From assembly GCA_030407315.1 (NCBI GenBank), contig JALQPE010002569.1, positions 1 to 64,000 on the forward strand: a stretch of DNA of 64,000 bases, written 5' to 3'. The translations under genes and the position numbers were made by a program. Positions 20,841 through 64,000 of the stretch are shown piece by piece. Origin of the DNA: Asparagopsis taxiformis. Taxonomy: Eukaryota; Rhodophyta; Florideophyceae; Bonnemaisoniales; Bonnemaisoniaceae. Within the stretch, counting starts at the first letter, position 1; every line of letters begins with the position of its first letter. The notes under the pieces were generated by a model that did no database searches, had not been told where the DNA came from, and saw nothing but the letters and a program-made list of their open reading frames with translations.

Positions 20841-20862
20841 CACTACGGTGTTGAAAAGGGGG

Positions 20863-27680: not shown

Positions 27681-27684
27681 GGAT

Positions 27685-30500: not shown

Positions 30501-30604
30501 CCACTTTGCAGCCTTTTTCGCGAGGTCCGAAATCGTCTCCTTCTTCTTCCCGAGTGAGAAACATCAGTCCCTCTCATATGCTTACAGAGAAGTTGGTTTA
30601 CCAT

Positions 30605-35577: not shown

Positions 35578-35590
35578 CAACACCGTAGTG

Positions 35591-42438: not shown

Positions 42439-42464
42439 CACTACCGAGTTTGAGATTAAAAAAT

Positions 42465-42830
42465 GTAGTAAATTTACTGCCTGAGGCAGTAAAAATCACT
42501 GCCTGAGCAATGTAGTGCCTGAGGCAGTAAAATTACTATTTTAATTTTTTCAGTTCTAGTGCCGCAGGCAGTAAAATACAAAATTTCCTGGCAGTACGGT
42601 ATGTAGCAGAATTCAGTACTGTACGATAGCAAATTCTAGTAATTTTTGCTGGTACCACAGGGCAGTAGTGCAATGCAGTGATTTTTGATGATTTCTGCAA
42701 TGGAATGTACTGCCGTACAGTACTGCCCTGGCAAATGACCTGGCATTAGAATCAGGCAGTAAAATATACTGGCTCCGGCAGTGAATTGTACTGCCTGCAA
42801 GTACTGCCTTGATAGTAATTGGTGATTGGT
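42465..42830. repeat. Subterminal palindromes, left end of element B
   Basis: Repeated CTGCCTGAGGCAGTAAA and CAGTAAATTTACTG-type units in both orientations, with drift. They are positionally and in sequence the counterpart of 228-545, with CTGCC/GGCAG replacing CTGTC/GACAG. Confidence 0.8.
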
Positions 42831-43136
42831 ATTTTCTGAGATTCAATGTTGCAATAGTTGTCCAGGATAGGGTTGTACAATGTGTTCGCATGTGAGTTCA
42901 AGTAGAGAAGAGAGGAAACTATTCTGAAGCTACTAGTAGTGAGAAGTGTAGAGGATGCATGGTCACATGGAAATGACCGTTACAAAAAAGGTAGGAGAAA
43001 ATCGGTCGTTTTCCGAGGATATGAGTAGAGTAGTTGGCATTATTTGTTACTATTGCTAGCATTCTAGTTCCAGGAAAAGCGTTTGGAGTGACACTCTGCG
43101 ATTGGAACGAGAGGCGAAGGCGAATTTTGACGGAAG

Positions 43137-44660
43137 ATGGAATCTCAGCGTCGTGAGGAAAATCCAAATGACTGCCTAGCAGGGATTATTCGAGAGGGAT
43201 TCAGGACAGTGACTGGGGAAGTTCGTCGTATTGGGGAGAGGATGGATGAAATCGACGATGATCGAACGTCCCAACGCCAGCAAATCGAAAAGCTGATGAG
43301 TCGCGTCGAGTTTATTGTAACGGAACTACAGGGTGTGAAAGACATCTGTGATGGTTTATTACAGCAGAGTCAGGGCACTTCGAAGAAGGGGATGACTGAC
43401 AAGGACAGGGACCGTTTGCGCATCTCGCAGTCAGCAGAACTATCGTTTTCTTACAATTTTCTGTGTGCAGTATTTGGAACTGTTGTACCTTTGCTGGTCG
43501 ACAAGATTGATGCTGGGGCGACAATTTACACCAACCAAGGAATCTACGACCTCCGTGGTTGCAGGTTGCTCTCTGCAATGATGTTTGCGAAGCAGAGCAA
43601 TGACAAGAGGGATGTGTTCCAATCAAACACCGGGAAGAACAACATCGAGCTTCGATTCCAAGTGGTGATGTCTCTCCTGCGGAACATTCAGAAGGAAAAG
43701 TCGGGTACAGGCCGTACAGTGGAAGGCTCGAGCTCTGGACGCGATTCGAATGCGTTCAACGTCTGGAAGGAGAACAAGTACATTCCGGACAAAATAATCG
43801 AAGAAGTTGTTTATGGTGCCACTGGCGATGGCCGAAACCAGCCTGCAGGAAGCATTGACGGAGGGGCTAGGAAGCGGAGGAAAACAGATGGAAATGGTGG
43901 ACAGTTGAGCAAGCGTGAAATATCTTTGGCTGTTACGAAAGTTGCGCTGACAAAGGTGCTCGGTTTCCTGAACAAGTCTAGAGAGCAGGTGCGCCATCGA
44001 TTCCTTGTCGAACTGGGGTTCGCTCTAGTGTTGGAAACGGACGCCTCTATCACTTTCGAGTTTCCAACTCACGATCTCATTCGAGATATGGATGTTATCC
44101 CCGATACCCGTGTGACCAACGGAAATCTAAGGCCTGAGGAACGGAAAGTTGTGGATGACAAGAATTCCGAGATCTTGATACAATTCATCGCTGAGCGGAA
44201 AGAGATGGTTGTCATCATTCAGTACGAAGTCGAGATATCGGGATGTGTGGCCAAAAGGATGATTCGAAGGAGAATCAATATCCTGGAGGTAGCCCTGAAC
44301 ACTGCAATTGCTTTCCTTCAATGCACGAGTAGAATGGTTTTCCTGCGACGTTCCTGCAATTCACTCAGATTTGTCTATGCAATCGCTTCCGGGATTCTAG
44401 GAATTTTCAAGGTACAATCAGGTCAGACCTTCGAAGAAAGTGTACAAGACGAGCTCAAACAATTAGGAAAGGCGATGTTGCCGAGTGACCGAATCTGTAA
44501 GAGGCATCTCTGTGAAGATGTACTGACAATTACTAACGAAAAATTCGATGAACAACACTTGGAACAGCGTAGTACCGCGTTTGAGGAGGATAGCGGACAT
44601 GGAAATGAAGAAGATGGGAGTGAAAGCTACGTTGAAGTTTTCCTTGATGAGGAAGATTGA
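43137..44660 (+). CDS. Gene 1 (element B): coiled-coil/DNA-associated protein, 507 aa
   Basis: Intact frame from an ATG at 43137 (MESQRREENP). The predicted coiled coil spans about residues 15-85, then TDKDRDRLRISQSAELSF, then a conserved middle with CRLLSAMMFAKQSNDKRDVF. A basic run (RKRRKTDG, about residues 242-249) looks like a nuclear signal. The C-terminal region has RRRINILEVALNTAIAFLQC and FLRRSCNSLRFVYAIASG, ending in an acidic tail. It matches element A gene 1 throughout and lacks the frameshift found there. No known enzyme motif is visible. A role in DNA binding or in assembling the element's proteins is inferred from its first position beside the subterminal repeats. Confidence 0.8.
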   Translation: MESQRREENPNDCLAGIIREGFRTVTGEVRRIGERMDEIDDDRTSQRQQIEKLMSRVEFIVTELQGVKDICDGLLQQSQGTSKKGMTDKDRDRLRISQSAELSFSYNFLCAVFGTVVPLLVDKIDAGATIYTNQGIYDLRGCRLLSAMMFAKQSNDKRDVFQSNTGKNNIELRFQVVMSLLRNIQKEKSGTGRTVEGSSSGRDSNAFNVWKENKYIPDKIIEEVVYGATGDGRNQPAGSIDGGARKRRKTDGNGGQLSKREISLAVTKVALTKVLGFLNKSREQVRHRFLVELGFALVLETDASITFEFPTHDLIRDMDVIPDTRVTNGNLRPEERKVVDDKNSEILIQFIAERKEMVVIIQYEVEISGCVAKRMIRRRINILEVALNTAIAFLQCTSRMVFLRRSCNSLRFVYAIASGILGIFKVQSGQTFEESVQDELKQLGKAMLPSDRICKRHLCEDVLTITNEKFDEQHLEQRSTAFEEDSGHGNEEDGSESYVEVFLDEED

Positions 44661-44729
44661 TAATGGAGGCGTAGAAGTAAAGTTTCATAGCCTTTGAAGG
44701 GAACCGACTACTACGAGAGACTTAAGAGA

Positions 44730-44735
44730 AATAAA
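44730..44735 (+). terminator. Candidate polyadenylation signal, gene 1 (B)
   Basis: AATAAA about 70 bases after the stop codon, in the same relative place as in element A. Confidence 0.55.
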
Positions 44736-44974
44736 AACCTTTAGATGTGAAACTGTCTAGGATGTGCGTGGAAAAGGTGCACCGCAGCATGCTACGTACT
44801 ACATGGTGTACTGGAAACAATAGCTATCGTTCTTTTTTTTCAGCTCACTCTGCGACTAGAAAGCGTCATGTCTACTACGGTTAAGAGTTTTACCCTGTCA
44901 TTGAGCACGCCTCTAGTACCTTCGGGGCCTGTGCAGTCCCATCCAATGCCGTAGCTCCACCTGGCAGAGTAGTG

Positions 44975-45125
44975 CGGAAAATAATACCGGGTATTATTTT
45001 GAGGAATATTTTGCCAAGTGGAGGGCAATCATTCGTACCGACTACAGGCGATCCCTGGACGAAACCTAAGAATAATACCCGGTATTATTTTCAGGGATAT
45101 TTTGCCAAGTGGAGAGCAATCATTG
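44975..45125. repeat. Two-unit palindrome array, element B
   Basis: Two units of about 90 bases, each with AAAATAATACC(C/G)GGTATTATTTT followed by AGGxATATTTTGCCAAGTGGAG. These share the core found in the three large arrays of element B. Confidence 0.85.
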
Positions 45126-45265
45126 TTACAGAATGCAGACAGTCCCTGGACGAAGGAACAGGCCAGAAAGATACGGAGCATGTATCGATGGATACCATCG
45201 ACTTAATCGAGGTTGACTAACTCTAAACAGTCTTGTAGACCCATCTAGAAAAGATAGAAAACGTT

Positions 45266-46654
45266 TTACTCGGAGGCGACATTGTGTACGGTAGGATGAG
45301 GTGCATCGACAGGGGAACTATTCTGTCCAACGATAACGTCATGTCCAATTGTGTCTAGCTCGCTGCAGATGGTGTGTCCACTGAAAATGCATGCTGGGAG
45401 GTTCAAGTATGCAGTTCCCAACACAACATTCTTGAGAACGCGCTCGAAAGTTCCATATGGACGAGGGCCTTGAACAGGTTTCCAGGTCAGTGAGAACGAG
45501 TTGGCCAGTTTGAAATTTTTGCTGTCCGGCAGCTCAAAGTTCTCTTGCATTTCTCGACTTGAGAGGAAGCGAGCTTCCAAAGGATACGAATAGCTGCAAT
45601 TGACATAGTCGTACTCATCAGATTCTCGAGTAAGAACGACAGTACTACTCATGTTTTCAGATCTCCTGTATAAAGAGGAACCAACAAGAACAGCCTTTGT
45701 AGATGGAATAGAATCTTCTGAAGCACTGTCTGCTAGAGTTCCCAAAACTCTAATGACAGAAGACCCAGAATCGTGTCGTGTTTTCTTCCACTTGAGGATA
45801 GTAGAGTTCGTGCATGTAGACATGGAAGGAGCTAAAGTATTGCAGAGGTCATAGTATGTTCCAAAGTGGATCGATAGCTCTTTATCTCTCCCAGTTGAAA
45901 TTCGAACCGCCTCGACGCTCGGCAGGAAAATTGTGTTTGGGTTGTTCTTCTCTTCGCATAGCCTGGAAAGTTGTAAAAACTGTTCAAGCGAGCAATCTGC
46001 TCTTGCCGTCACATAGTCTTGCACCAAGGAGCTCACTTCCCGGCCTGTTTCAGACTTCGTGATTTTGGAGGACAGGGGTTTGTCCAGTTTTAAGCCAACT
46101 CTCTGGAACAGGTAGTCGCACACAATGTTTCCGAAGATGGGTCCAGTAGCGCTTGATGAACCGCGACAGTTGAAAATCTGCCTTTCGAGGTAGGATACCT
46201 TTTGAAACAGCTTGGATATGTCCTCATTGATGTTAGGACCAGGAGGACTCTCATCGCAAACTAAGCGCGGCTCGGACTTAGATCGACTCAACATGTTTTC
46301 TTTGCAGTCTTTTTTATGGAAACTGTCTTCACCCGCCGACGAGATCGTCTGCTCTAGTGCTAGTTGCTCTCCAAACCTCCAACGTAGCATGTTTCCAGAG
46401 TCAATGTCCAGCAGCGAATTGTTCTTGAATAATTTTGCTGTAGAGACTGACTGGTCGAAACCGTGTTCAGATTGATATTGCAGCGTAACAAACAAGTTTC
46501 CAGTCAAACGATGTTCTCCGGACGCGTCCGGCTTGGCAGTACTCAAAACTTTGGCGCCCCACCAAACCTTTTTCTGTTTCCTTCCTCTCGTTCGTAAACT
46601 CCATTCTACTTCAATGACTGATCCTTCGGAGACAAACTCTGTTGGGTCTTGCAT
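45266..46654 (-). CDS. Gene 2 (element B): Tudor-like N-terminal domain protein, 462 aa
   Basis: Intact frame from an ATG at 46654 (MQDPTEFVSEG). The first ~85 residues (VIEVEWSL, RGRKQKKVWWGAKVL, then LQYQSEHGFDQS) match the N-terminal Tudor-like region of the element A copy. A short coiled coil lies at about 145-160 (ISKLFQKVSYLERQ). The conserved C-terminal part includes VIRVLGTLAD, LVGSSLY and PACIFSGHTICSELDTIG. The two copies agree in order and length, so the protein is under constraint as a single unit. It is divergent from gene 3. A chromatin-reader role is plausible but unproven. Confidence 0.75.
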   Translation of the reverse strand: MQDPTEFVSEGSVIEVEWSLRTRGRKQKKVWWGAKVLSTAKPDASGEHRLTGNLFVTLQYQSEHGFDQSVSTAKLFKNNSLLDIDSGNMLRWRFGEQLALEQTISSAGEDSFHKKDCKENMLSRSKSEPRLVCDESPPGPNINEDISKLFQKVSYLERQIFNCRGSSSATGPIFGNIVCDYLFQRVGLKLDKPLSSKITKSETGREVSSLVQDYVTARADCSLEQFLQLSRLCEEKNNPNTIFLPSVEAVRISTGRDKELSIHFGTYYDLCNTLAPSMSTCTNSTILKWKKTRHDSGSSVIRVLGTLADSASEDSIPSTKAVLVGSSLYRRSENMSSTVVLTRESDEYDYVNCSYSYPLEARFLSSREMQENFELPDSKNFKLANSFSLTWKPVQGPRPYGTFERVLKNVVLGTAYLNLPACIFSGHTICSELDTIGHDVIVGQNSSPVDAPHPTVHNVASE

Positions 46655-47385: not shown

Positions 47386-50300
47386 ATGGCCTCTGAGAAG
47401 AGAAATCCAGCGAGCACCTCTGGGCGTCCCCTTCATGGTGAGCGGCGCAATGGGCTATTGCACATCGACCCATTCAAGATCAAAAGATATGTCGAGATTC
47501 GAGAAATCGACTACAGGCACGTCGATGTTATTGCCGAGAGCATTCAGGTTTACGGCTACAATGACAACAACCCAATTACCGGTCGGATCATTGACGGTGA
47601 TGTACAGGTGCTGGATGGTGCGCATCGTTCGAAAGCTGTAATCAAGCTCATAGAGAACGGTGAGCTTCCGCGTGATTTCACTGTTCCTATGATTGAAGAA
47701 GAAGTCGACATATCTCCGATTACAAGTGCTGCTTTCCTTCTAGATAGTGTGAAAGCATCAAACGCGAACGATATGGCATCCAGGCAGAAGAGGATGACTT
47801 TCATTGAGTACCTGAATCTTACTTTGGATCTTAGAGATGGGTACTGGGAGCGAAACGCAGGTGAAAAACAAGGGAGCTCAAGCATGGTTACAATTCGCGA
47901 CGTGAATATGCCATCCATTAGGCGATGGCTCGCCGTGGGATCTCAGCGCGAAGATTTGGCAGAAACTGTGCTGAGGCAGCCACAGTACGAGAGTTGCTTG
48001 TCAATTCTTCGTGTGCTTCGCCCCTACAGTCGCATAGAAGAACCCAATCCCAAAATGGTTCGCTGTCTGTGGCAGTTGTTCTGTATTGTATGGGGAAGGC
48101 CGGTTGAAGTTCAGAACAATTTTGCGATGAAGGAGTTTCCCACATCTCTCGAGAAAAGAGCATCAGTCGGCGAGCAGTTGTTTGGGATGTCTACAAGTGG
48201 TGAAATTGCTTCTCCATTGTGTCGCGAAGTCCTCACCTGTGAGTATTTTCGTTCTGGAAGAAGTGCACAGGGTAGAACATTAACAGAAGAAGACAAAGTA
48301 TTTGGAAGGCTGATGTTTATGATTTCATTTGTGCACATTGCCCTCACTAGACGCAGAAATGCACCCATTCGCCGGGGTAGGAAGCGTCGTAGAACTGGGA
48401 GGGATACAGAGACTTCTACATTCGCCCCTTTCCAGCGCACAAGAGCAAACGGAGAGTCTGTGGGTGTCGTTTTGGAAAGGGTCATGTCTGCCTGGGATAC
48501 AACAGCGATGATTCTGGGCTTCGAAAGCGCCTACATGATGTGTCGCCCATACATGGTTTTCGACTCTGAGAAATTCCAATTCATCTGTCTTGCTAATCGT
48601 ACTGACGGGTGGGCACATCCTGACCACTACTCAGATCTTCTGCTTCCGTCCCCGGTAGTGAAACTCCGCGAGAATGCAGGTTATCCAGGCACTTTGGATA
48701 TCTCTGTTGATGCAAGGTTGAGGTCTTTGACAGAAGCCGTACTAGTGTCTGTGTATGACTGTATGATAGGCATTGATGTATTCGGATCAAGTACGAACCA
48801 GATGGAAGGGCTGCGCACTAAATTTTTCCATCAGCCTGACCGGTTCGGATTGAACGCCTTCATCGAAGCAAGAATAGAACAATCCATCGCATTGGATGGT
48901 CACGAAAGACTCAAGGTATGGAAGAACTGGAACCGTGAAATGCGTGTGAAGCCAGTTGATGTCTGCGACTTGAAAATTCTCTACGAGACTGAACAGCGCA
49001 ACGCAGCATCCAGATCTCTTTCTCGAGAAAGAGATCGTCTTGAGTCGAATGAATCAATGCAGCACAGCACTCGCCGTTTAGGTACAGGTGGAAGGAAACC
49101 TACCAATGACTCTGGATCCCAGTATACATCCAGCATGGATGGGAGGGCTTCGTCCGCAGTGGACACGGTTATGCAAGATGTTGCGGAGGATACACCGTCA
49201 GCGGAGGCAGTGGGTGAGGAAGAGGGGGTACCGGATCATATTGTGCAATTGAAAAAGGTCATGAAGAGATTTTGCGTGGCTTACAACTGTACAGCCTCGA
49301 GGTTAGTGCACCGGGTTAACACTGATTCCATTGGCATGCTTTCAGGGAATACTATTGATGGACAAGCACAACTTGTGCTCACCGATCCACCCTTCAACAC
49401 GCGGAGGGAGAAAGGCAAGACCAATTCAGACTATGATGACATCAATAGCGCACAAATGTTTCGTACTGGAAAGGACATTTCTCGAATGCTGCGCCCTGGA
49501 GGACATGCCCTGATATTTTCCAGTATCAAACAGTTGGTTGGGTGGGGAGAAGCTCTTCAAAATGCAGAAAGCGGGGAACAATCCATGCGTACAGACGATG
49601 TTCCTCTCATTCTAAGCCGTCGTCCCTACGTATTCATCCAAAACCCAATGAACAAATCGTGTTCATTACACAACATTCACGAGTTTGTTGTGCACAGTTT
49701 CAAACGTGGGATGGGAGCTGCCGCGTTTGAAATGGTTGATTATTCTTTGCATAACCGTGACCTTTCACGACATCCAGGGTACGTGAACGCAATCGACAAC
49801 TGCCCAAAGCTCGGACCTGGTGAGTCATTGAACTTCGAAGACAAAAGGCTACGTGCGGAGCAGAAGCCTCTGTCCATACTTCGAGAGCTTATTTCAAGGT
49901 TTTCAAAGCCAGGAGACATTGTGGTAGATCTATTCTCCGGAACGTATTCTACTGCAATAGCTTGCATGACAATGAGAGATGGTCTGTATCGCAAGTTTAT
50001 TGGATGTGAAAAAGACGCCACATGCCATGGATCAGCTCAGCCGTTGTTGCTGGATTGCTTTGTTAGGCAAGGTCGAGATGGAGTTTTTGGGGAGGCAACC
50101 AAAAATGACATATCGAGTATTCTCGCTAACAAAGAATGGAATTACTCGATAAGGAGCAATGTAGGAAGTGAAAGACTTCGACATCGAAGTGATGCGCCTG
50201 ATGGATTCCCGTCGGTATCTTCACTACCACTGCATATGTTGCGATTTGTCTCCTCTGTTGCGCGGGATCAAAGCATGCTCCGAAGACTTGCCGAAGTCCC

Positions 50301-50895
50301 AATGAATGAATGGGGCGTAGAAGATTTAGGCAAGGTTTTCTCCGTTGACCCTGAGATGATGCTTGCAGTAGATGCCTCCTTTCACAACGTTATTGTTGCT
50401 GCATCGACAGTTCGAGAGGGAGGATTGGGGGTTTTTGCCGCAGAAGATTTAGAGAGGGGCTCTGTTGTTGGATGGTATAATGGGACAATTTTATACGGGA
50501 AGATTGGGGAGAATGAACCGCAACGCAGTCGCTTGTACGGACCGGACGGGTTCGGTTGTACTGGTGAAAGATTCCAAAACTTCAACATGGAGATGGAGAC
50601 CAGTGTCATCGGAGAAGAAGCACCGGTCGACAAGATATATCTTGTACCAGCGGAATACAATGTCTGCAGCTACCTCAACGACAGTAGGACCATTGACGGA
50701 ATGGAGAGAGTTGCAAATGTGCAACGCAGAAAAAATGCAGAGTTCCGAGTTCACAAAGACGTCAATCCTACTTGCGACTTCAAGTATGCAGTAGCAAAAC
50801 CTGATCTCATCCTAGCGCAGGTTGTAGTAGATGTTCGAGCTGGGGAAGAGATATTCGTTGACTATGGATCGCGCTACTGGACTGCAGAGAAGTAG
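47386..50895 (+). CDS. Gene 3 (element B): ParB-like / DNA amino-methyltransferase / SET fusion, 1169 aa
   Basis: Starts at the ATG at 47386 (MASEKRNPAS, context CGATGG). It has the ParB/Srx-like domain with DGAHR at residues 77-81, a conserved helical middle, and a low-complexity linker near 545-620. The methyltransferase has DPPF at 667-670 and DLFSGTYS at 848-855, followed by FIGCEKD. The preceding LRELISRFSKPGDIVVD is the usual lead-in to motif I in beta-order enzymes. The SET domain spans about 1000-1169, with GGLGVFA from 1012, CSYLND ending at 1099 and EEIFVDYG ending at 1161. All catalytic landmarks present in element A are kept. It is likely the central enzyme of the system, with the ParB-like part perhaps directing it to the element's palindromes (inference). 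The stop is followed by AATAAA at 50940. Confidence 0.92.
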   Translation: MASEKRNPASTSGRPLHGERRNGLLHIDPFKIKRYVEIREIDYRHVDVIAESIQVYGYNDNNPITGRIIDGDVQVLDGAHRSKAVIKLIENGELPRDFTVPMIEEEVDISPITSAAFLLDSVKASNANDMASRQKRMTFIEYLNLTLDLRDGYWERNAGEKQGSSSMVTIRDVNMPSIRRWLAVGSQREDLAETVLRQPQYESCLSILRVLRPYSRIEEPNPKMVRCLWQLFCIVWGRPVEVQNNFAMKEFPTSLEKRASVGEQLFGMSTSGEIASPLCREVLTCEYFRSGRSAQGRTLTEEDKVFGRLMFMISFVHIALTRRRNAPIRRGRKRRRTGRDTETSTFAPFQRTRANGESVGVVLERVMSAWDTTAMILGFESAYMMCRPYMVFDSEKFQFICLANRTDGWAHPDHYSDLLLPSPVVKLRENAGYPGTLDISVDARLRSLTEAVLVSVYDCMIGIDVFGSSTNQMEGLRTKFFHQPDRFGLNAFIEARIEQSIALDGHERLKVWKNWNREMRVKPVDVCDLKILYETEQRNAASRSLSRERDRLESNESMQHSTRRLGTGGRKPTNDSGSQYTSSMDGRASSAVDTVMQDVAEDTPSAEAVGEEEGVPDHIVQLKKVMKRFCVAYNCTASRLVHRVNTDSIGMLSGNTIDGQAQLVLTDPPFNTRREKGKTNSDYDDINSAQMFRTGKDISRMLRPGGHALIFSSIKQLVGWGEALQNAESGEQSMRTDDVPLILSRRPYVFIQNPMNKSCSLHNIHEFVVHSFKRGMGAAAFEMVDYSLHNRDLSRHPGYVNAIDNCPKLGPGESLNFEDKRLRAEQKPLSILRELISRFSKPGDIVVDLFSGTYSTAIACMTMRDGLYRKFIGCEKDATCHGSAQPLLLDCFVRQGRDGVFGEATKNDISSILANKEWNYSIRSNVGSERLRHRSDAPDGFPSVSSLPLHMLRFVSSVARDQSMLRRLAEVPMNEWGVEDLGKVFSVDPEMMLAVDASFHNVIVAASTVREGGLGVFAAEDLERGSVVGWYNGTILYGKIGENEPQRSRLYGPDGFGCTGERFQNFNMEMETSVIGEEAPVDKIYLVPAEYNVCSYLNDSRTIDGMERVANVQRRKNAEFRVHKDVNPTCDFKYAVAKPDLILAQVVVDVRAGEEIFVDYGSRYWTAEK

Positions 50896-50939
50896 GACAG
50901 TATACGCGTCCAATTACAGATATCAAGAGTACCATCAGC

Positions 50940-50945
50940 AATAAA
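50940..50945 (+). terminator. Candidate polyadenylation signal, gene 3 (B)
   Basis: AATAAA 45 bases after the gene 3 stop. Confidence 0.6.
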
Positions 50946-51049
50946 AAGTCTTGCATCTGAACTCGTACAACGTTGTAGTACTACAATCTACCTGAGCGAT
51001 AATAACAGACTTTCATTTGCTGAGCGGTGCCAGTCAGCCCACGCCCAAT

Positions 51050-52060
51050 GATAGTGCTGCACCTGGGCTTTGCCATACCAAAATAATACCGGGTATTATT
51101 TCGGGTGTGGCCAGCCCAAGTGCAGCTCTGCCATTGGCTGTCATGAACGCAGCGGCAGCCAATGGAATTGCTGCACCTGGGCTTTGCCATGCCAAAATAA
51201 TACCGGGTATTATTTTGGGTGTGGCCAGCCCAAGTGCAGCTCTGCCATTGGCTGTCATGAACGCAGCGGCAGCCAATGGAATTGCTGCACCTGGGCTTTG
51301 CCATGCCAAAATAATACCGGGTATTATTTTGGGTGTGGCCAGCCCAAGTGCAGCTCTGCTATTGGCTGTCATGAACACAGCGGCAGCCAATAGAATTGCT
51401 GCACCTGGGCTTTGCCATGCCAAAATAATACCGGGTATTATTTTGGGTGTGGCCAGCCCAAGTGCAGCAATTCTATTGGCTGTCATGAACGCAGCGGCAG
51501 CCAATGGAATTGCTGCACCTGGGCTTTGCCATGCCAAAATAATACCGGGTATTATTTTGGGTGTGGCCAGCCCAAGTGCAGCTCTGCTATTGGCTGTCAT
51601 GAACGCAGCGGCAGCCAATGAATTGCTGCACCTGGGCTTTGCCATGCCAAAATAATACCGGGTATTATTTTGGGTGTGGCCAGCCCAAGTGCAGCTCTGC
51701 TATTGGCTGTCATGAACGCAGCGGCAGCCAATGGAATTGCTGCACCTGGGCTTTGCCATGCCAAAATAATACCGGGTATTATTTTGGGTGTGGCCAGCCC
51801 AAGTGCAGCTCTGCTATTGGCTGTCATGAACGCAGCGGCAGCCAATGGAATTGCTGCACCTGGGCTTTGCCATGCCAAAATAATACCGGGTATTATTTTG
51901 GGTGTGGCCAGCCCAAGTGCAGCTCTGCTATTGGCTGTCATGAACGCAGCGGCAGCCAATGGAATTGCTGCACCTGGGCTTTGCCATGCCAAAATAATAC
52001 CGGGTATTATTTTGGGTGTGGCCAGCCCAAGTGCAGCTCTGCCATTGGCTGCCAGGTTTG
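51050..52060. repeat. 114-bp tandem palindrome array, nine units (element B)
   Basis: Each unit centres on AATAATACCGGGTATTATT. Around this core lie GGCTTTGCCATGCCAA on one side and TTGGGTGTGGCCAGCCCAAG on the other, and outer arms GCAGCCAATGG and CCATTGGCTG. Each unit is therefore a nested palindrome. Units are nearly identical; one lacks a base (period 113). Some units swap the outer arm orientation (GCAATTCTATTGGC at about 51466). Because 114 is a multiple of three, long spurious open frames run through it on both strands. Confidence 0.95.
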
Positions 52061-55351: not shown

Positions 55352-57414
55352 TGAAGGATGATGGAAAGCAGGAATGGAGAGAAGCTTGATTGAGTGTACG
55401 ACCCCGATAACGACGATACAGAGACGATTAAGATAGATTTATTTCGCTACTGCAGTCTGATAAAGGATCAAACGTGAACAATCCGTTTCAACTCTGATTT
55501 CAATTTTTTGTTTATTTCTAGACCACTTGACTCAGATCAAGAGTAATACTCGAAATTCAGTTAATTTCTGCGGCCAAATACAATCGCTATACGACGAGTT
55601 CACACTCAAAGTGGCTAAACAGGTACGAGTTGGTCATGGTGATTACCCCAAAACCACTCAAGTAATAACTACATAATGCTGAAGTCACATACTTCCCAGC
55701 ATTTTGCACCAACTCGTGGAGCTGATGCGTACATACCAAATGCATCTGTATTCAACATGAACCACGAATAAGTGGGCTTCGGCCAATGAGTGCACTGCAC
55801 CTGGCTTGAGAAACTAGGAATAATACCCGGTATTATTTTGGCCTCCCAAACGCCAGGTGCACCAACGCCATTGGCCGGTGGTAGTTTGGACAACCTCGGC
55901 CAATGGGGTTGGTGCACTTGGTCTATACCGACCCAAAATAATACCGGGTATTATTTTGGCCTCCCAAACGCCAGGTGCACCAACGCCATTGGCCGAGGGT
56001 ATCCGGCTACCACCGGCCAATGGGGTTGGTGCACTTGGTCTATATCGACCCAAAATAATACCGGGTATTATTTTGGCCTCCCAAAAGCCAGGTGCACCAA
56101 CGCCATTGGCCGGTGGTAGTTTGGACAACCTCGGCCAATGGGGTTGGTGCACTTGGTCTATACCGACCCAAAATAATACCGGGTATTATTTTGGCCTCCC
56201 AAACGCCAGGTGCACCAACGCCATTGGCCGAGGGTATCCGGCTACCACCGGCCAATGGGGTTGGTGCACTTGGTCTATACCGACCCAAAATAATACCGGG
56301 TATTATTTTGGCCTCCCAAACGCCAGGTGCACCAACGCCATTGGCCGGGGTATCCGGCTACCACCGGCCAATGGGGTTGGTGCACTTGGTCTATACCGAC
56401 CCAAAATAATACCGGGTATTATTTTGGCCTCCCAAAAGCCAGGTGCACCAACGCCATTGGCCGGTGGTAGTTTGGACAACCTCGGCCAATGGGGTTGGTG
56501 CACTTGGTCTATACCGACCCAAAATAATACCGGGTATTATTTTGGCCTCCCAAACGCCAGGTGCACCAACGCCATTGGCCGAGGGTATCCGGCTACCACC
56601 GGCCAATGGGGTTGGTGCACTTGGTCTATACCGACCCAAAATAATACCGGGTATTATTTTGGCCTCCCAAAAGCCAGGTGCACCAACGCCATTGGCCGGG
56701 GTAGTTTGGACACCCTCGGCCAATGGGGTTGGTGCACTTGGTCTATACCGACCCAAAATAATACCGGGTATTATTTTGGCCTCCCAAAAGCCAGGTGCAC
56801 CAACGCCATTGGCCATTGGCCAATGGGGTTGGTGCACTTGGTCTATACCGACCCAAAATAATACCGGGTATTATTTTGGCCTCCCAAACGCCAGGTGCAC
56901 CAACGCCATTGGCCGAGGGTATCCGGCTACCACCGGCCAATGGGGTTAGTGCACTTGGTCTATACCGACCCAAAATAATACCGGGTATTATTTTGGCCTC
57001 CCAAAAGCCAGGTGCACCAACGCCATTGGCTGAGGTTATCCGGAGTACCCCCAGGCAATGGGGTTGGTGCACTTGGTCTACACCCACCCAACTTTATACC
57101 CGGCCAGACTCCTGTTCTCAGGAACTGAAAATTTTACCGGGGATAGTAAACGATGTATTATAATACCAGGTTTTACTATCTGCTATCGTTTCTCGCATCT
57201 AATGAAGAGGTTTAGAATTTGCAGCTCTTGTAGCTAGAGCTTTCTGTGGAGAATAGCTTTCTGCATGTGGTGTTTGTTACATTTGTGAAGTTGATCTGAC
57301 TATATAAAGAATCCATGCAGTATCTCTTTTATCATGTTCTATTGGAATTGTGTTTATTACTCTACGGATTCATACCCAACTAAGGCTTCAACACGGCTGG
57401 ACAGATGCCCTTCA
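55352..57414. other. Interval between gene 4-beta and gene 4-alpha (element B)
   Basis: Contains the 117-bp array at 55795-57085. The flanks 55352-55790 and 57090-57414 are AT-rich and without genes. Confidence 0.65.
55795..57085. repeat. 117-bp tandem palindrome array, eleven units (element B)
   Basis: Units centre on AATAATACCGGGTATTATT (the first has ACCCGGT), flanked by ACCGACCCAA and TTGGCCTCCCAAA. Outer arms (GGCCAATGGGGTTGGTGCAC and GTGCACCAACGCCATTGGCC) pair with each other. Two subtypes of the segment between arms alternate (GGTGGTAGTTTGGACAACC and GAGGGTATCCGGCTACC), with one short unit near 56810. The core is shared with the 114-bp and 103-bp arrays, but the flanks are not. Confidence 0.95.
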
Positions 57415-60400
57415 TCACTTCAATTTCGAATTGCCCTCCCAATGTCCAACGACATATTCTCCTTCTTCACTTTGATGCTGCTCAGTTTTGAGGAATATGT
57501 GAGATCGGATCGGGAACTTGTATTGAAGACCCTTATTGCTCTCAAATCCTTCCTCGTGGTGATAAACATCCCCTCGGCAGACAAGAACAGAATATGGTGG
57601 TACTTCACACCTCTTCATTGGAACTCTGTATAACTCTCTGTTGGGATGGGATAAACAGACATGACTGTAGGGTGCAAGCACGAGGCCGAATCCATCTGCG
57701 CCGCTTGACATCATGAAGTAGGATGGCGGAGAAGGGGGACTGTTAACTTCATCGATTCCCACTTCATAGTCTGTATGTCCAGCACGAGGTTTAGTCCGCT
57801 CTCCAGTCAGCACTAAAGTAGTTCCAGTGCTGGGGAAGGCCATCGGGTCCTTCCCACTAGTCCTCAATTCCAAACATTCCGCACAAATACCTAGACCGAG
57901 CTCAACAATCATCTTCTTCCGATAGAGATTATTATTGTTATCCTCGAGGTCATCACATAAGCTCTTCCGCTTTGTTATAAAGATTCCTCTGCCCTTCTCA
58001 CCTTCTTCATCAGAGTTTTTCCCATCCATCATAGCCATGCACCACGGTGTCCAGTCCGGATCTCTGCGGGTGTCACCGGATTCAGAGTTCTTCTTGGCAT
58101 CCTCGAGACGTTCCTCAAACAACGCAGAAAAATGAAGGAGCAGTTCGTGGATCGCATCTGCAGTAGTAGAAGACTTGAATATTCCGTCCAGAATTGTAAA
58201 CCCAACCAAGTCTATTTCATTTCGTTTCTCTCGGAAATAAGCCCTCGAGAGAAACTCAGCGGAAACATTTTGTGCCGAATAGGCACTCGCTGCTGCTTCA
58301 GCGACCTCGGCTCGAAGCGTATCGACCAGTTTCCCATTCACATAGTATTTCACTCGACTGTCGGGATGAATGATAACAGGCAGTTTCGCTTCTATACCTT
58401 CCTCCACATCTTTGTCAGGGACATCATTTTGTTGCCTGTCCGAATACTGACCTCCTTGAACCGCGTGGACTGCAGCGTCTTTGCCGGATTGCAAATTTGC
58501 GTCTTCACGCATCTTTTGCTTCTTCTTCTGCCGCGGCCTGCTGGTATCCTCTCCCACCAGGTCAATAACCTCTTGAGGGGTGACATCCACCAATTTCCGT
58601 TTGGATCGTAGAATCATTGGCGGCGTCTCCGTATTCCTCGGCTTTGCCTTTAAGGGCACGAAACCACTGCTGTGCTTGGCTGTCATCAACTTCCTAGGCG
58701 TAGAACTGGTAACAGGTGTTTCCGTGTCCTCCAGCTCAGGTAAAACAGGTAGGCCGACATCCGCTGTAGATAACATAGCGTCTCCAGTGCCATCACCCTG
58801 ATTTCGTACACCTTTCATCGGGTCCTCCGTTGTCCTTCCAGAAGAATGTTCGGGACATTCTTCGCGGACATCTTTCGTTCCAGACCCATCGCTCTTCCTA
58901 GATTCAGGACCTCCTTCACCATCTCGACCAGTTCTTGGATGACCAACTGACATATTCGCCGGCGACTTTCCACCCTGCTCTGGTCTGAGCGTGGCACTTC
59001 CGGCTGCCACTGGGCTAGGTGATTGTTGCAGGTCATTTTCATCACCGTGGTCATTTCTTCCTCGATTTGCACCAGCTGGTTCAAGCTCTGGAGTTCCTAC
59101 GTTCTTCTGCAACACATCCCCAACTTCACAATCTCCAGGTTTCGAAGAATTGTTCTCGGTAGGCGCAGTAGGCACTGCGCGGTCCGTTGTAACCTGCTTT
59201 GCGCTTTCGGAATCTGCCGCTTTCCCTGTCGCCTCTTCACCAACCTGTGTTGCAGCACCGACCTCAGCGTTAACACGATCCGATATTTCCAGACTGCCCT
59301 GTGTCTGCTGTTGGGTAAGTACATTTGGACTCTGTACCACGTCCGAGCGATCAATGGCAGCATTTGAAGTATCACCATACGATGCGGATTGTTGTCGTGG
59401 TTGAGGTGCAGTATTCCCTTCCAAGGATTTTCGCCTAGTCCGCCTTTCCTGCACACCTATTTCAGGCGCGACGGAATGGTCGAGAGAGTCATCCGATAGA
59501 ATTGGGCCGTTGAAAACCACATAACGGATTTCTTTCATCATAGACCGCGTCAATGCTGCACGTATACCTCTCCCAGTTGGTGCGTCGGAAGGATAGAAAT
59601 CTTTGAGGACAGTCAAAATGCGATATCGTATGGTTTTTCGTGTTCGTCCACCTGGCTCCGGTACTTCATGTAACTTCCTGAAACATGGATGAGGTGAGGA
59701 ATGCCAGGAGTTTTCTTTCCGTACAGCTTTCTCAAGTATGTCATATATTTCACACATGCTGTAGCACCACTTTTGCGCGCATGTCTTTAGACTTATACCA
59801 CCATCTCCTTTCCTACGTTTCCACATCGTCCACATTGCAGTGAGCTCTAGAATGACAAGTTTGGTGTCCACCGAAGCTTTTCGAAACGCAGAAGCGAATA
59901 GGACGTCCACAGTGCATCCCTGCATATTCTTCGAGTCTGGCGGACTAGTTTCAGTTGCAAATCGACTTGGGATAGCTGACCAATGTTCGAACGCCGGGTT
60001 ATTTACGTCTCCGAAGCCCTGCGCAATCGAAACGTACTTCATCATGATTCCTTCCTGACAACCTGGAATGACCTTGTTCTCGACTACAACTTTTGTGCAC
60101 ACATTTACCTTCGCCTTCATCAAGCCCTTCATCATCATGAACTTCATGACCGTACAGACGTGGTCAGCAATAGAAACTTCTATCACGTCATGAGTCTTTT
60201 CGTTCAGCTTCTGCGATATTCGCATCACTTCAAGAGGATGAAACATTTCACGGGTTCCAGGTGGTCGGATGAAGTCAACGCTAATGCTCCTCAGTCTCCA
60301 TCGATCAGCAACTGTCGGTTTGTTTTCCACAATCGACTGCAAAGCGCTGATACGATGACCTCCATCAATGCACTGCAGTTTCTTCCGTCCGTCTGACCCC

Positions 60401-60939
60401 ATTGTTTCACAGATGGTCATTCGGGTGCCAGTTTCCAGAAACCCCTCGGTAGATATTTTGCTGACCAGATCGCGCACTCTGGCCTCCTGCACAAGACGAG
60501 AAGTTGATTCCGGTTTGGCAACATCTAGCGGATTGATCATTTTAGGTTCAGTCCTGCATTCGACAATGTTGATGTCAATCCCCATCACAGACTCTTCTGA
60601 TGCTTCCATGCCAGCAGGACTCCCCTCGCCTTCACGGACGTTAGACCTCTCCCTGTTTTTCGATTTCACCGTCCCAGGAGTAGATGGAAAGCGTAGAGTG
60701 TTTTTCCCAGATGGTGATATATCACCAAGGGTTTTTGCTGCCTCTATCATGGCAGCGTCTGCTCCCTGAATGGGTGTCTGGCTATCTGCCGTCTCCCTTC
60801 CCGCTGCAGACGGAGTCCCTCCATCACCAGAACCTCCGGAGGGTGTTTTATCACCGCCTACCGTCGTTGCAAGTCTCTCTGCAACGCTTTCGACGGTATC
60901 CTTTGGTTCCGCAGCGCGCTCAGTGTCGCTTCCGGCCAT
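57415..60939 (-). CDS. Gene 4-alpha (element B): ParB-like + 2OG-Fe(II) oxygenase, 1174 aa
   Basis: Intact frame from an ATG at 60939 (MAGSDTERAA). A disordered N-terminus of about 140 residues precedes the ParB-like domain with DGGHR at 192-196. Alpha-type signatures follow (MKYVSIAQGF, NPAFEHWSAIPSR, then GCTVDVLF). The linker from about 490 to 870 is long, charged and disordered, with basic runs (RQKKKQKMR). The junction has SRVKYY, and the oxygenase has H1055 and D1057 (HTD), H1127 (RGDVYH) and R1145 (RSH). It is the intact counterpart of the broken 9401-12920 gene. Its retention beside a beta paralogue in both elements argues that the two forms are not redundant. It probably acts in the nucleus; the substrate is unknown. 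Confidence 0.85.
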   Translation of the reverse strand: MAGSDTERAAEPKDTVESVAERLATTVGGDKTPSGGSGDGGTPSAAGRETADSQTPIQGADAAMIEAAKTLGDISPSGKNTLRFPSTPGTVKSKNRERSNVREGEGSPAGMEASEESVMGIDINIVECRTEPKMINPLDVAKPESTSRLVQEARVRDLVSKISTEGFLETGTRMTICETMGSDGRKKLQCIDGGHRISALQSIVENKPTVADRWRLRSISVDFIRPPGTREMFHPLEVMRISQKLNEKTHDVIEVSIADHVCTVMKFMMMKGLMKAKVNVCTKVVVENKVIPGCQEGIMMKYVSIAQGFGDVNNPAFEHWSAIPSRFATETSPPDSKNMQGCTVDVLFASAFRKASVDTKLVILELTAMWTMWKRRKGDGGISLKTCAQKWCYSMCEIYDILEKAVRKENSWHSSPHPCFRKLHEVPEPGGRTRKTIRYRILTVLKDFYPSDAPTGRGIRAALTRSMMKEIRYVVFNGPILSDDSLDHSVAPEIGVQERRTRRKSLEGNTAPQPRQQSASYGDTSNAAIDRSDVVQSPNVLTQQQTQGSLEISDRVNAEVGAATQVGEEATGKAADSESAKQVTTDRAVPTAPTENNSSKPGDCEVGDVLQKNVGTPELEPAGANRGRNDHGDENDLQQSPSPVAAGSATLRPEQGGKSPANMSVGHPRTGRDGEGGPESRKSDGSGTKDVREECPEHSSGRTTEDPMKGVRNQGDGTGDAMLSTADVGLPVLPELEDTETPVTSSTPRKLMTAKHSSGFVPLKAKPRNTETPPMILRSKRKLVDVTPQEVIDLVGEDTSRPRQKKKQKMREDANLQSGKDAAVHAVQGGQYSDRQQNDVPDKDVEEGIEAKLPVIIHPDSRVKYYVNGKLVDTLRAEVAEAAASAYSAQNVSAEFLSRAYFREKRNEIDLVGFTILDGIFKSSTTADAIHELLLHFSALFEERLEDAKKNSESGDTRRDPDWTPWCMAMMDGKNSDEEGEKGRGIFITKRKSLCDDLEDNNNNLYRKKMIVELGLGICAECLELRTSGKDPMAFPSTGTTLVLTGERTKPRAGHTDYEVGIDEVNSPPSPPSYFMMSSGADGFGLVLAPYSHVCLSHPNRELYRVPMKRCEVPPYSVLVCRGDVYHHEEGFESNKGLQYKFPIRSHIFLKTEQHQSEEGEYVVGHWEGNSKLK

Positions 60940-63069
60940 TGCAAAGATTTGGACGCGTAGAGAAGCCGTTCAGGATGACAAAGACACCTTTTCTCTCCGA
61001 CTACACGATCAAGAGATATTCCTCTTTCAAGGTGGTATTTGGCGGGAAACGATCTCCCTACACGTTTAAACGTGAAATATCAGTTATTGATTCACCTTCC
61101 ACGCGCTCCAATTGTATTCGGCCATCTGTCATTCCTCGACGAAGGACTTCCCACACACAATTCCTTCGTTCCCAAAACCATCCCATTGCCATGAATCATA
61201 GTACTCCACTTGTCACTGGAGCCAGAAACTATACCGGGTATTATTTTCCACTGCATTGGCCAGGTGCCGGCTCCCCATTGGCAGCAGACAGCATCAGTCA
61301 CAATACTCCACTTGTCACTGGAGCCAGAAAACTATACCGGGTATTATTTTCCACTGCATTGGCCAGGTGCCGGCTCCCCATTGGCAGCAGACAGCATCAG
61401 TCACAATACTCCACTTGTCACTGGAGCCAGAAAACTATACCGGGTATTATTTTCCACTGCATTGGCCAGGTGCCGGCTCCCCATTGGCAGCAGACAGCCA
61501 TCAGTCACAATACTCCACTTGTCACTGGAGCCAGAAAACTATACCGGGTATTATTTTCCACTGCATTGGCCAGGTGCCGGCTCCCCATTGGCAGCAGACA
61601 GCAATCAGTCACAATACTCCACTTGTCACTGGAGCCAGAAAACTATACCGGGTATTATTTTCCACTGCATTGGCCAGGTGCCGGCTCCCCATTGGCAGCA
61701 GACAGCCATCAGTCACAATACTCCACTTGTCACTGGAGCCAGAAAACTATACCGGGTATTATTTTCCACTGCATTGGCCAGGTGCATTGGCAGCAGCAAT
61801 CAGTCACAATACTCCACTTGTCACTGGAGCCAGAAAACTATACCGGGTATTATTCCACTGCATTGGCCAGGTGCCGGCTCCCCATTGGCAGCAGACAGCA
61901 ATCAGTCACAATACTCCACTTGTCACTGGAGCCAGAAAACTATACCGGGTATTTTTCCACTGCATTGGCCAGGTGCCGGCTCCCCATTGGCAGCAGACAG
62001 CCATCAGTCACAATACTCCACTTGTCACTGGAGCCAGAAAACTATACCGGGTATTATTTTCCACTGCATTGGCCAGGTGCCGGCTCCCCATTGGCAGCAG
62101 ACAGCAATCAGTCACAATACTCCACTTGTCACTGGAGCCAGAAAACTATACCGGGTATTATTTTCCACTGCATTGGCCAGGTGCCGGCTCCCCATTGGCA
62201 GCAGACAGCAATCAGTCACAATACTCCACTTGTCACTGGAGCCAGAAAACTATACCGGGTATTATTTTCCACTGCATTGGCCAGGTGCCGGCTCCCCATT
62301 GGCAGCAGACAGCAATCAGTCACAATACTCCACTTGTCACTGGAGCCAGAAAACTATACCGGGTATTATTTTCCACTGCATTGGCCAGGTGCCGGCTCCC
62401 CATTGGCAGCAGACAGCATCAGTCACAATACTCCACTTGTCACTGGAGCCAGAAAACTATACCGGGTATTATTTTCCACTGCATTGGCCAGGTGCCGGCT
62501 CCCCATTGGCAGCAGCAATCAGTCACATACTCCACTTGTCACTGGAGCCAGAAAATATACCGGGTATTATTTTCCACTGCATTGGCCAGGTGCCGGCTCC
62601 CCATTGGCCAGCAGACAGCCATCAGTCACAATACTCCACTTGTCACTGGAGCCATTATACCGGGTATTTTTCCACTGCATTGGCCAGGTGCCGGCTCCCC
62701 ATTGGCCAGCAGACAGCCATCAGTCACAATACTCCACTTGTCACTGGAGCCAGAAAATTATACCGGGTATTATTTTCCACTTCATTGGCCAGGTGCCAGC
62801 TCTCCATTGGATTATGCGAACTCAACTTTGTGGAACTAGGAGTCCTGCAACTCGCGGCTCCATCTCTAGTACCAATGGCATCATACGTACGTAAGTGCGT
62901 ACGCTCTTCGCAAAACACACTTTATTTGTGCGCATGGAACAAAATCCCACACTATTCTTCAAACGACATGTACAAATTTTGTATAGCATTTGTTGGAAGA
63001 CTTGATCAGGACTGCTGCTAAATGAATTACGAAAGTTTACTGATGTATTAAACACTGTGCTGGAACACT
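60940..63069. other. Interval between gene 4-alpha and gene 5 (element B)
   Basis: Contains the 103-bp array at 61195-62815. The stretch 60940-61190 upstream of gene 4-alpha should hold its promoter; 62820-63069 holds 3' sequence of gene 5. There is no gene. Confidence 0.6.
61195..62815. repeat. 103-105-bp tandem palindrome array, sixteen units (element B)
   Basis: Units contain ACTATACCGGGTATTATT between CACTTGTCACTGGAGCCAG and CCACTGCATTGGCCAGGTG, then CCGGCTCCCCATTGGCAGCA. Arms CTGGAGCC and GGCTCC, and CCATTGGC and GCATTGGCC, again give nested pairing. Small length changes (CAT/CCAT/CAAT, loss of ACAG, GTATTTTT in place of GTATTATTTT) break any constant frame, so units differ by one to several bases. 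Core placement matches the other two arrays. Confidence 0.95.
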
Positions 63070-63966
63070 CTATGCTGAACGTGGTGGGTATCCATCTTCT
63101 CTAGTTAAGACGCTCACTTCACCACCAGAAAGAATATCACTATTGTGCTCTACAATGCCACTTTGTCTATCGTATGAACAAACTCCTGACTCGCAGTTAT
63201 GTACGTGCAAAACTTCTCGGACCCCGTCGTTCATTTCAACGTGAACTATAGTATCATTCCCACCTTTCCGGTACATACCGTCTCCAGTGCATGTCAAGGG
63301 AATGCAGACAGCATATGGAGTTTTCTGCTTCCATTTCTTTGCCTTCTTCTCCTCTCCTTGCCCTACCACAATAAAAAAGGACAATGTGACGAAAAGGACA
63401 CGTCTGGAACATGTGAATTCCTCCATGCTCGTCCTGCTATGGGCGGGTACTACTATACCAGCATCATACCATCCATCTTTGCACACTGCTTGAATGATGC
63501 TTCCAGGTTCAGCACGCCCTAACCTCGATTCGCTCTCAGATCCCTCATGACTAGTGCGCACTCTTTGTGCAGCAGTGAGCCACCATAGTCGTTCACCATG
63601 TTGAGACCCGTTTACCTGTCTGGTTCTGAGAAAAGTTTCAGAAGCTTTACGTATCCTTGCCATCATGACGGTTTCTTCTGCCGGAACATTTTTCGCGTCT
63701 TCAACAGATTCCCCTCGCCACCGCGTGATTGGACAGTGGGTGCTCACCATAGTACTGCTCCTCTCTGATATGAGATGGAATACAGGACTTAAGAAGCATC
63801 TTTTTGCTGCCTCTTCTGTCGCATGTGGACTCTCCGAAATTCCTTTTCCTAGTGCAAAATACACGCGTCTGCAATCGGCAGACGTCCATTGTTTTGTATT
63901 GTGACCTACCGCACCCAGCGTGATGGCTATTCGTGCGAGCCAGTCATCGGCCATGATGAGCTCCAT
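63070..63966 (-). CDS. Gene 5 (element B): conserved element protein of unknown function, about 298 aa
   Basis: Reads from an ATG at 63966, but the frame is still open to the window end, so the true start could be upstream. The N-terminal part is helical (WLARIAITLGAVGH, then TSADCRRVYFALGKG). The C-terminal half begins near GSIIQAVCKDGWYDAG and has a hydrophobic strand FVTLSFFIVV, a basic loop (EEKKAKKWKQK), VHVEMNDGVREVLHVHNC and a terminal GGEVSVLTREDGYPPRSA. The same C-terminal half is kept in 18751-19212 of element A, including the conserved Cys pair and the PPRxA end. I do not recognise the family. The strand-rich C-terminus could be a small reader or binding domain. Confidence 0.65.
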   Translation of the reverse strand: MELIMADDWLARIAITLGAVGHNTKQWTSADCRRVYFALGKGISESPHATEEAAKRCFLSPVFHLISERSSTMVSTHCPITRWRGESVEDAKNVPAEETVMMARIRKASETFLRTRQVNGSQHGERLWWLTAAQRVRTSHEGSESESRLGRAEPGSIIQAVCKDGWYDAGIVVPAHSRTSMEEFTCSRRVLFVTLSFFIVVGQGEEKKAKKWKQKTPYAVCIPLTCTGDGMYRKGGNDTIVHVEMNDGVREVLHVHNCESGVCSYDRQSGIVEHNSDILSGGEVSVLTREDGYPPRSA

Positions 63967-64000
63967 TGATGACAGATGTTCATTCTTATGGTTCGAGTTT

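Follow-up and report, generated by a model that had tools for sequence, protein, structure and literature searches.

We report that a 64,000-nucleotide stretch of the red alga Asparagopsis taxiformis (the window; bases 1-64,000 of the 77,172-base contig JALQPE010002569.1, in a genome set of 141.5 Mb and 3,156 contigs) contains the main part of an autonomous DDE transposon, CACTA-like and ~27 kilobases (kb) long, that has recently multiplied in this alga. The genome gave 13 phycobilisome-family matches, as expected of a red alga; 11 of them are on a 224-kb contig together with ORFs resembling atpB and atpE by eye, so that this contig is probably the plastid genome. Its beta-phycocyanin comes nearest, among three chains at E 1e-90 or below, to 5y6p_c4, a chain of the red alga Griffithsia. 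We recognize it as a mobile transposon because it combines defined termini, an internal transposase-like gene and many near-identical copies with a co-linear, diverged sister and a relative inserted in a host gene. We call the transposon element 2, its sister element 1 and the inserted relative element B. The six genes of element 2 are predicted to encode, besides the transposase, DNA methyltransferase, SET and oxygenase-like domains joined to ParB-like modules, and its spacers carry arrays of a short palindrome. We judge it an evenly balanced proposition that this ParB-targeted chromatin kit would act on the element's own arrays and keep the element's genes expressed.

Element 2 occupies 42,439 through 69,380 of the contig, a span of 26,942 base pairs (bp) whose right end lies 5.4 kb past the window. 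It begins CACTACCGAGTTTGAG and finishes GACACAGTAGTG. Elements 2 and B both have CACTAC...GTAGTG ends, and element 1 has CACTAC at its left end (position 206). Transposons of the CMCT clade have 5'-CA...TG-3' termini, CACTA in EnSpm (PMC12730594; this and other articles cited by PubMed Central number are quoted from excerpts), and the ends of elements 2 and B agree with the CACTA/EnSpm form. The left 27 bases of element 2 matched the genome 229 times at two mismatches or fewer, and a reversed control never did. Allowing mismatches, the left terminus was present in 17 of 20 fetched left-side loci (the exact pattern alone gave 11 of 20); 15 of these have flanking DNA, each flank different, and two lie at a contig end. 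The three misses were L019, L030 and L026, the last a short piece at a contig end. Right ends were exact at the equivalent of 69,380 in 10 of 11 fetched loci (the miss being L038), with ten different flanks beyond. Compared with the window copy, five of these ten show 100% identity across 3.4-4.3 kb, and the remaining five 98.4-99.6% across 1.1-2.7 kb.

Gene copies tell the same story of recent multiplication. The best 40 of 3,786 gene-3 candidates, a sample biased toward good copies, were all full-length, open and 100% identical. Over the N-terminal 923 amino acids (aa) of the transposase, all 49 scored copies (of 1,935 candidates) showed 99-100% identity. For the C-terminal end of gene 4b, 127 copies were scored out of 3,443 candidates, so that at least this many exist in the genome; all showed 98-100% identity, and six had an internal stop. 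Gene 4b lies downstream of gene 3, on the opposite strand and 4.5-9.5 kb away, in 31 of the 40 gene-3 copies, and stands in register with the transposase, at 4.1-5.7 kb, in 42 of 49 transposase copies. Among the nine gene-3 copies lacking a downstream gene 4b, three (C9, C2027 and C1983) are within 6.3 kb of a contig end. The variable spacing between copies would fit tandem arrays of differing length. The right flank of the window copy (from 69381) and the left flank of the C9 copy (L013) both fall inside methyltransferase-SET genes of a third family, described below; each is a nested insertion, one giant element within another. A search of the window against Rfam gave no match. A short minus-strand open reading frame (ORF) at 42072-42419 adjoins the left terminus and contains EPFWLARI, a stretch that we take to recall BAH or Tudor-type domains.

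Element 1 is an old copy, its right end not found and its gene-4 frames broken. It retains counterparts of all six element-2 genes in equal order and orientation, at amino-acid identities of 38-43% for gene 1, 33% for gene 2, 43% for gene 3, 29-46% for the gene-4 pieces and 36% for the transposase C-terminus. The spacers of the two elements have few words in common. No right terminus was seen near 19.25 kb; the gene-4 ORFs have come apart into separate frames, and of the transposase just the end was found. By best match, the two gene-4 paralogues stand in opposite order in elements 1 and 2, reflecting either an exchange of order or independent duplication. The preliminary description of this DNA had proposed a giant, mobile transposon with the same ordered gene set at two sites, each behind a CACTA-type terminus. 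The CACTAC sequences at 206 and 42,439, the six shared genes, the 229 left-terminus matches and the 15 differing left flanks all bear this out, as does the recent date of its mobility: in the genome-wide copy comparison the gene order is conserved, and the genes are not single-copy host loci without termini.

The transposase of element 2 is encoded across the window boundary. A separate "gene 5" had been placed at 63,070-63,966; an ORF is indeed present there, but it is the C-terminal part of a single ORF spanning 63,070-66,771. A single-sequence search with this protein gave nothing useful, and 25 further protein-database relatives were found at E values of 1e-3 or below. Two aspartates, D418 (in a D[DG]F motif) and D504 (in a GDYPA-like motif; P0019 numbering), are invariant in all 26 aligned sequences, as are C523-x2-C526, a C(2)C motif, and E815, E832 and E836, each a candidate for the catalytic E. 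The CMCT clade is characterized by a DDE transposase with C(2)C between the second D and the last E and by an H(3-4)H motif (PMC12730594). The DDE and C(2)C traits are present here. Some H(3-4)H string occurs in 6 of the 26 sequences and none is conserved; we therefore name the transposase CACTA-like, not EnSpm proper. Neither Transposase_21 nor Plavaka exceeded its Pfam cut-off in the 26 sequences. Below cut-off, Plavaka appeared in two (best E 0.11) and Transposase_21 in one (0.055), and eight unrelated families scored alike, near chance.

Element B supplies the clearest insertion site. It is probably an inverted, deleted relative of element 1, judging from its inverted gene-4 repeats and its ends, and it interrupts a host Sel1-repeat gene. 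We tried removals of 0-6 bp at the junction. Taking out one TT copy (2 bp) fuses the Sel1 parts, giving a frame of 550 aa versus 430 aa, and only the 2-bp removal combines an identical duplication with a restored frame. A 5-bp removal also mends the frame, yet leaves no identical duplication; duplications of 1 bp or 6 bp are identical, but the frame stays broken. Target-site duplications in the CMCT clade measure 2-5 bp (PMC12730594). Duplication evidence for element 2 itself is weaker. Set against a paralogous sequence without the element, the flanks of the C75 copy have a 1-bp overlap; the left flank of C2275 and right flank of C1754 match one target with a 2-bp overlap. By eye, two of seven same-contig flank pairs share an identical 2 bp (C337, TG; C2142, TA), where ~0.4 would be expected by chance. 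One pair of the seven (C2588) shares an identical 3 bp, which we rejected as a duplication since the left and right flanks of this copy fall at different places in the target. The flank mismatches could reflect chimeric joining across 27-kb near-identical repeats. Partner junctions, looked for with two pattern searches, did not turn up.

Correcting the earlier reading, we predict that gene 3 encodes a single fusion protein in which a ParB-like module is followed by a DNA methyltransferase and then a SET domain. The latter two pass their Pfam cut-offs (PF01555, E 1.2e-13; PF00856, E 2.2e-5), the methyltransferase scoring 52 bits in element 2 and 60.9 in element 1 against a cut-off of 26.7, and SET scoring 25.3 and 24 bits, respectively, against 22.4. 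DPP(F/Y) and FxG(T/S), in beta order, are kept across seven aligned proteins; P0007 has DSPW. The canonical SET motif is NHxCxPN. Its NH is replaced by ND or NG in all seven aligned proteins, leaving SET activity uncertain. Five protein-database homologues (24-33% identity, 986-1,212 aa) align over the methyltransferase and SET domains. Two carry a precomputed Pfam SET label, and only P0003 aligns across the ParB-like part. Motif retention over such divergence suggests a selected function in gene 3. At its N-terminus, the protein matches the ParB-like phage partition family phrog_1033 (1.5e-6) and four weaker ParB-like families (0.039-0.21); its top match in PHROGs is phrog_4272 (8.4e-9), a family of unknown function. 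A profile search of solved structures with the gene-3 N-terminus returned chance-level matches only.

Scanning viral contigs with gene 3 yielded 12 loci, and the two inspected were a lone methyltransferase (L047) and a ParB-like plus methyltransferase fusion (L048). By eye, the L048 ORF (171-1478) would encode both modules in 435 aa, ending soon after the methyltransferase without room for SET. Equivalent scans with the transposase and with the gene-4 end found zero loci. Such a viral fusion is what one might expect if the repeat were an endogenous large virus; an assembly artefact could also be entertained, as contigs may be joined chimerically where they cross near-identical repeats of 27 kb, and the C2588 flanks map to two target positions. 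We consider either origin highly improbable, given the sharp CACTAC/GTAGTG ends, the transposase-like gene, the host-gene insertion of the related element B with its 2-bp duplication, and the finding that, in the proteins scanned, neither a capsid nor a polymerase family passed its cut-off.

Genes 4a and 4b appear to pair the same kind of targeting module with a different enzyme. In an hhalign comparison, the N-termini of both were linked to the ParB-like module of gene 3 (82%, E 1e-5), and a DG[GS]HR motif occurs in all four gene-4 N-termini. An HxD...H...R pattern, in the order of 2-oxoglutarate (2OG)-Fe(II) oxygenases, is kept in five of five gene-4 C-termini, drawn from element 2, element 1 and a relative at contig 70,964-75,079. 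From this pattern we predict an oxygenase-like domain at the C-terminus of each protein. TET/JBP models gave no Pfam match even at E 10 in searches with the C-termini of genes 4a and 4b of element 2 and with the L010 relative. A single-sequence search with gene 4a gave nothing useful; four protein-database matches at 3-7% coverage were discarded, the low-complexity linker having probably swamped the search. The relative just mentioned (L009:6964 to L010:1079) is a third, diverged gene-4-like protein; it lies beyond the right end of element 2, belongs to another element family and has a ParB-like motif near its N-terminus and an oxygenase-like C-terminus.

No reader domain exceeded cut-off in genes 1 or 2 (Pfam for both, NCBIfam also for gene 2), and the nearest match, Hva1_TUDOR at E 0.16 in element-1 gene 1, fell below it. 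The gene-2 N-terminus (KVWWGAKV) looks faintly Tudor or PWWP-type by eye, and neither Pfam nor NCBIfam returned anything for it. The preliminary description had envisaged a transposon that writes, reads and removes its own chromatin marks. Mobility and gene order support the transposon itself, and the methyltransferase and SET domains, which pass Pfam in both elements, are candidate writers. The putative remover, the predicted oxygenase, is a motif pattern kept in five of five proteins, with no oxygenase family matched in Pfam, NCBIfam or PHROGs; for the reading of marks, no reader domain emerged.

The spacers hold the candidate target sites. Four of the seven element-2 spacers (44,661-45,265, 50,896-52,381, 55,352-57,414 and 60,940-63,069) contain 38 TACCSGGTA sites in total, 18 of them within the exact 25-bp sequence CAAAATAATACCGGGTATTATTTTG, a palindrome save for its central base. 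Three of the seven element-1 spacers contain seven sites, in equivalent spacers and with different arms (close to GATTTTTTACCGGGTAAAAAATC). Coding DNA (31,476 bp) contains three copies of the 7-base core and none of the full motif, and a 6.8-kb non-element stretch (35,601-42,438) lacks even the core. Among 512 odd 9-bp palindromes, TACCSGGTA is the only one to reach at least three spacers in both elements. When the element-1 spacers were Markov-shuffled 2,000 times, the maximum was two, with the caveat that the shuffles ignore repeat-unit duplication inside element 1, so that its seven sites do not count as independent. Genome-wide, the inner 23 bases of the element-2 palindrome were matched 1,786 times; a reversed control gave 0. 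The central CCSGG is presumably the site of a known N4-methyltransferase of BcnI type. A second palindrome family, CTTACAGCAAAGTCATCGTTACGATGACTTTGCTGTAAG (39 bp, perfect save for the central base), occurs at 8522-30913 in a 24-copy repeat family across the spacers of elements 1 and B.

Array position suggests a further possibility. Every array-bearing spacer has at least one gene 3' end and spacers with 5' ends only have no palindromes, so the arrays could mark transcription ends or act as insulators and have nothing to do with the ParB-like proteins, with the enzymes as passengers having diverse targets. One exception to the pattern is the element-1 spacer at 2,559-2,874, which is flanked by two 3' ends and has no palindrome. 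We think this reading quite unlikely: the 9 to 16 sites of each large array are more than an end signal should need, and the same core recurs in a sister family whose arms otherwise differ.

We return to a kit directed at the element's own arrays. ParB-like modules on the methyltransferase-SET protein and on both oxygenase-like proteins would bind the palindrome arrays in the spacers. There, the enzymes would deposit DNA methyl and lysine methyl groups and oxidize bases or proteins. Most likely, the net result would be that element genes stay expressed despite host silencing, as VANC does for VANDAL. It is possible, though we hold it with some doubt, that the lineage acquired from a phage-type source a DNA-modification module targeted by ParB, joined SET to it, paired it with ParB-targeted oxygenases and co-evolved palindromic operator arrays at which all three enzymes would load onto the element's own spacers, giving a sequence-addressed epigenetic system that makes and removes non-host marks and has spread through a red algal genome.

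Several results weigh against the self-directed kit. Pfam ParBc matched none of the gene-3 or gene-4 N-termini tested, and PHROGs gave no ParB match for the gene-4 N-termini tested or for the gene-3 homologue P0003; gene 4 carries its ParB-like label solely through the profile link to gene 3. Pfam, NCBIfam and PHROGs contain no oxygenase family that matches the gene-4 C-terminus, AlphaFold gave it a mean predicted local distance difference test (pLDDT) score of 34 with no usable fold, and solved-structure profile searches with both gene-4 ends returned chance-level matches only. The roles of genes 1 and 2 are unexplained by it. Palindromes are missing from spacers that have 5' ends only, although these would be a natural place for an anti-silencing site, and from 9 kb of the third family. 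The arrays could instead serve 3'-end formation or transposase binding.

In the strongest rival, the accessory proteins would serve transposition: ParB-like proteins and arrays would organize or mark a 27-kb complex, and methylation would flag donor or newly replicated DNA. TnpA-type proteins act at CACTA subterminal repeats, and methylation-dependent transposition is known in other elements. A separate subterminal set exists here, CAGTAAA, a second repeat type of which 34 of 40 occurrences in the contig fall within five terminal stretches counted. Both sister families have kept the whole gene set, and element 2 exceeds the 16-20 kb En/Spm families termed enlarged in PMC6431247. Nevertheless, we regard a transposition role as unlikely, because the TACCSGGTA arrays sit between internal genes, not at the ends, and the third family pairs a Plavaka transposase with a methyltransferase-SET protein lacking a ParB-like module.

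That third family (C348, L062:542-9000) encodes a methyltransferase-SET protein of 1,067 aa and, beside it, a Plavaka transposase (1.1e-14), as well as a coiled-coil protein of 403 aa. Methyltransferase-SET fusions thus adjoin at least two transposase types in this genome. We saw no ParB-like module in its methyltransferase-SET protein and no TACCSGGTA-type palindrome in the 9 kb of L062, so targeting must differ there. Among 150 SET matches scored of 1,661 candidates, scores were mostly near-identical; one (C348) is the third-family gene, and the window element 2 is not among them. The equal scores suggest that the remaining equal-score matches belong to the third family as well. Writers with SET or DNA methyltransferase domains often have a repressive effect, and with several related families coexisting in one genome the kit might act outward, silencing competing elements or host defence genes by DNA and histone methylation. 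The Asparagopsis taxiformis genome, for which Sel1-repeat proteins are mentioned too, is 33.5% DNA transposons (PMC12115072); this share also counts for the idea. We find it improbable, given that the palindromes lie in the elements' own spacers, with none in 35601-42438 or in the 9 kb of the third family.

Table 1. Features of the window, in window coordinates (a dot marks features without strand).
Feature	Position	Strand	Description
Element 2 left terminus	42439..42830	+	CACTACCGAG..., then subterminal CAGTAAA/TTTACTG repeats
Gene 1	43137..44660	+	507 aa, N-terminal coiled-coil-like; element-1 homologue 1009-2558
Small tandem array	44980..45154	.	Period 91, 2 TACCSGGTA palindromes
Gene 2	45266..46654	-	462 aa; element-1 homologue 2875-4236 (33%)
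Gene 3	47386..50895	+	1169 aa; predicted ParB-like module, N6_N4_Mtase and SET in one protein
Gene 3 ParB-like module	47497..47778	+	DGAHR motif; phrog_1033 1.5e-6, residues 38-131
Gene 3 beta-class DNA methyltransferase domain	49369..50022	+	DPPF before FSGT
Gene 3 SET domain	50422..50868	+	Pfam PF00856
Tandem array	51055..52051	.	Period 114, 9 TACCSGGTA sites, 8 in CAAAATAATACCGGGTATTATTTTG
Gene 4a	52382..55351	-	989 aa; ParB-like module, low-complexity linker, predicted oxygenase-like domain H870-T-D872 ... H941 ... R961
Tandem array	55819..57091	.	Period ~117, 11 TACCSGGTA sites, 10 in the 25-bp palindrome CAAAATAATACCGGGTATTATTTTG
Gene 4b	57415..60939	-	1174 aa; gene 4a paralogue
Tandem array	61188..62810	.	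Period 104, 16 TACCSGGTA sites, arms partly different
Transposase C-terminal part	63070..64000	-	1,233-aa protein; gene runs on to contig position 66,771 (L046:121-3822)
Element 1	206..19212	+	Older, right-truncated relative, same gene order
Element 1 gene 3	4741..8217	+	1158 aa, open; PF01555 2.3e-16, PF00856 5.6e-5; ParB-like part by alignment to element 2
Element 1 spacer	8218..9400	.	3 TACCSGGTA palindromes; others ~13349, 18362, 18474, 18551
5' part of interrupted host Sel1 gene	19596..20840	+	Resumes at 35591
Element B	20841..35590	-	Probable inverted, internally deleted relative of element 1; inserted in host Sel1-repeat gene, 2-bp TT duplication

Transposons are usually viewed as targets of chromatin silencing. 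If the proposed mechanism is true, a transposon with its own methyltransferase, SET and oxygenase-like enzymes and matching sites would amount to a complete device for writing an epigenome, and a natural one. Such an element could import bacterial-type DNA methylation into a eukaryotic nucleus and could help account for the DNA transposons that fill red algal genomes.

The preliminary description had called this architecture undescribed. In open-licence literature, covered by titles and abstract starts with subscription papers and Repbase Reports outside that scope, we found no transposon joining ParB-like, methyltransferase and SET domains or ParB-like and oxygenase domains, and the excerpts of PMC4455052 and PMC8616336 contain nothing on one. 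We would nonetheless soften that claim: enlarged En/Spm elements (PMC6431247) and transposon-borne SET and TET/JBP genes (PMC12730594) were already known. The ParB-like modules, the transposase and the palindrome arrays go beyond the earlier reading.

Among known systems, the En/Spm (CACTA) families of Chondrus crispus are likewise red algal, CACTA-type and oversized with extra ORFs, at 16-20 kb and 4-5 ORFs (Kojima 2013, cited in PMC6431247). Element 2, with 26.9 kb and six genes, is set apart from them by description, not by sequence, and possibly the Chondrus families and element 2 form one broad group. TET/JBP genes occur in eleven transposon lineages, including fungal EnSpm, Plavaka and KDZ (PMC12730594). 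Those fungal elements are also DNA transposons carrying an oxygenase thought to counter silencing, and EnSpm and Plavaka are the nearest transposase groups; here, in contrast, the oxygenase-like domain has no Pfam match, is joined to a ParB-like module and stands alongside a DNA methyltransferase and SET. Phytophthora HarbingerS and MuDR elements encode SET proteins, so transposon-borne SET domains have precedent, but in other transposase superfamilies, and the excerpt does not mention a ParB-methyltransferase fusion (PMC12730594). The viral L048 fusion shares the order of a ParB-like N-terminus followed by a methyltransferase; its 435 aa leave no room for SET, whereas gene 3 sits in a eukaryotic transposon. 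Bdelloid rotifers also bear a bacterial-type mark in a eukaryote, N4-methylcytosine (4mC), and the start of the abstract makes no mention of a transposon-borne gene (PMC8885841). The nearest functional parallel is VANDAL21 of Arabidopsis, whose VANC proteins bind a 9-base motif in tandem arrays of VANDAL non-coding DNA and lower its methylation (PMC5735166). As in element 2, an element protein is matched by a 9-base motif multiplied in arrays of the element's own non-coding regions; VANDAL21 is MuDR-type, its motif differs, and binding has been demonstrated there, whereas here the arrays are known from sequence alone. As far as can be told by eye rather than by protein alignment, the resemblance would be one of logic and not of descent.

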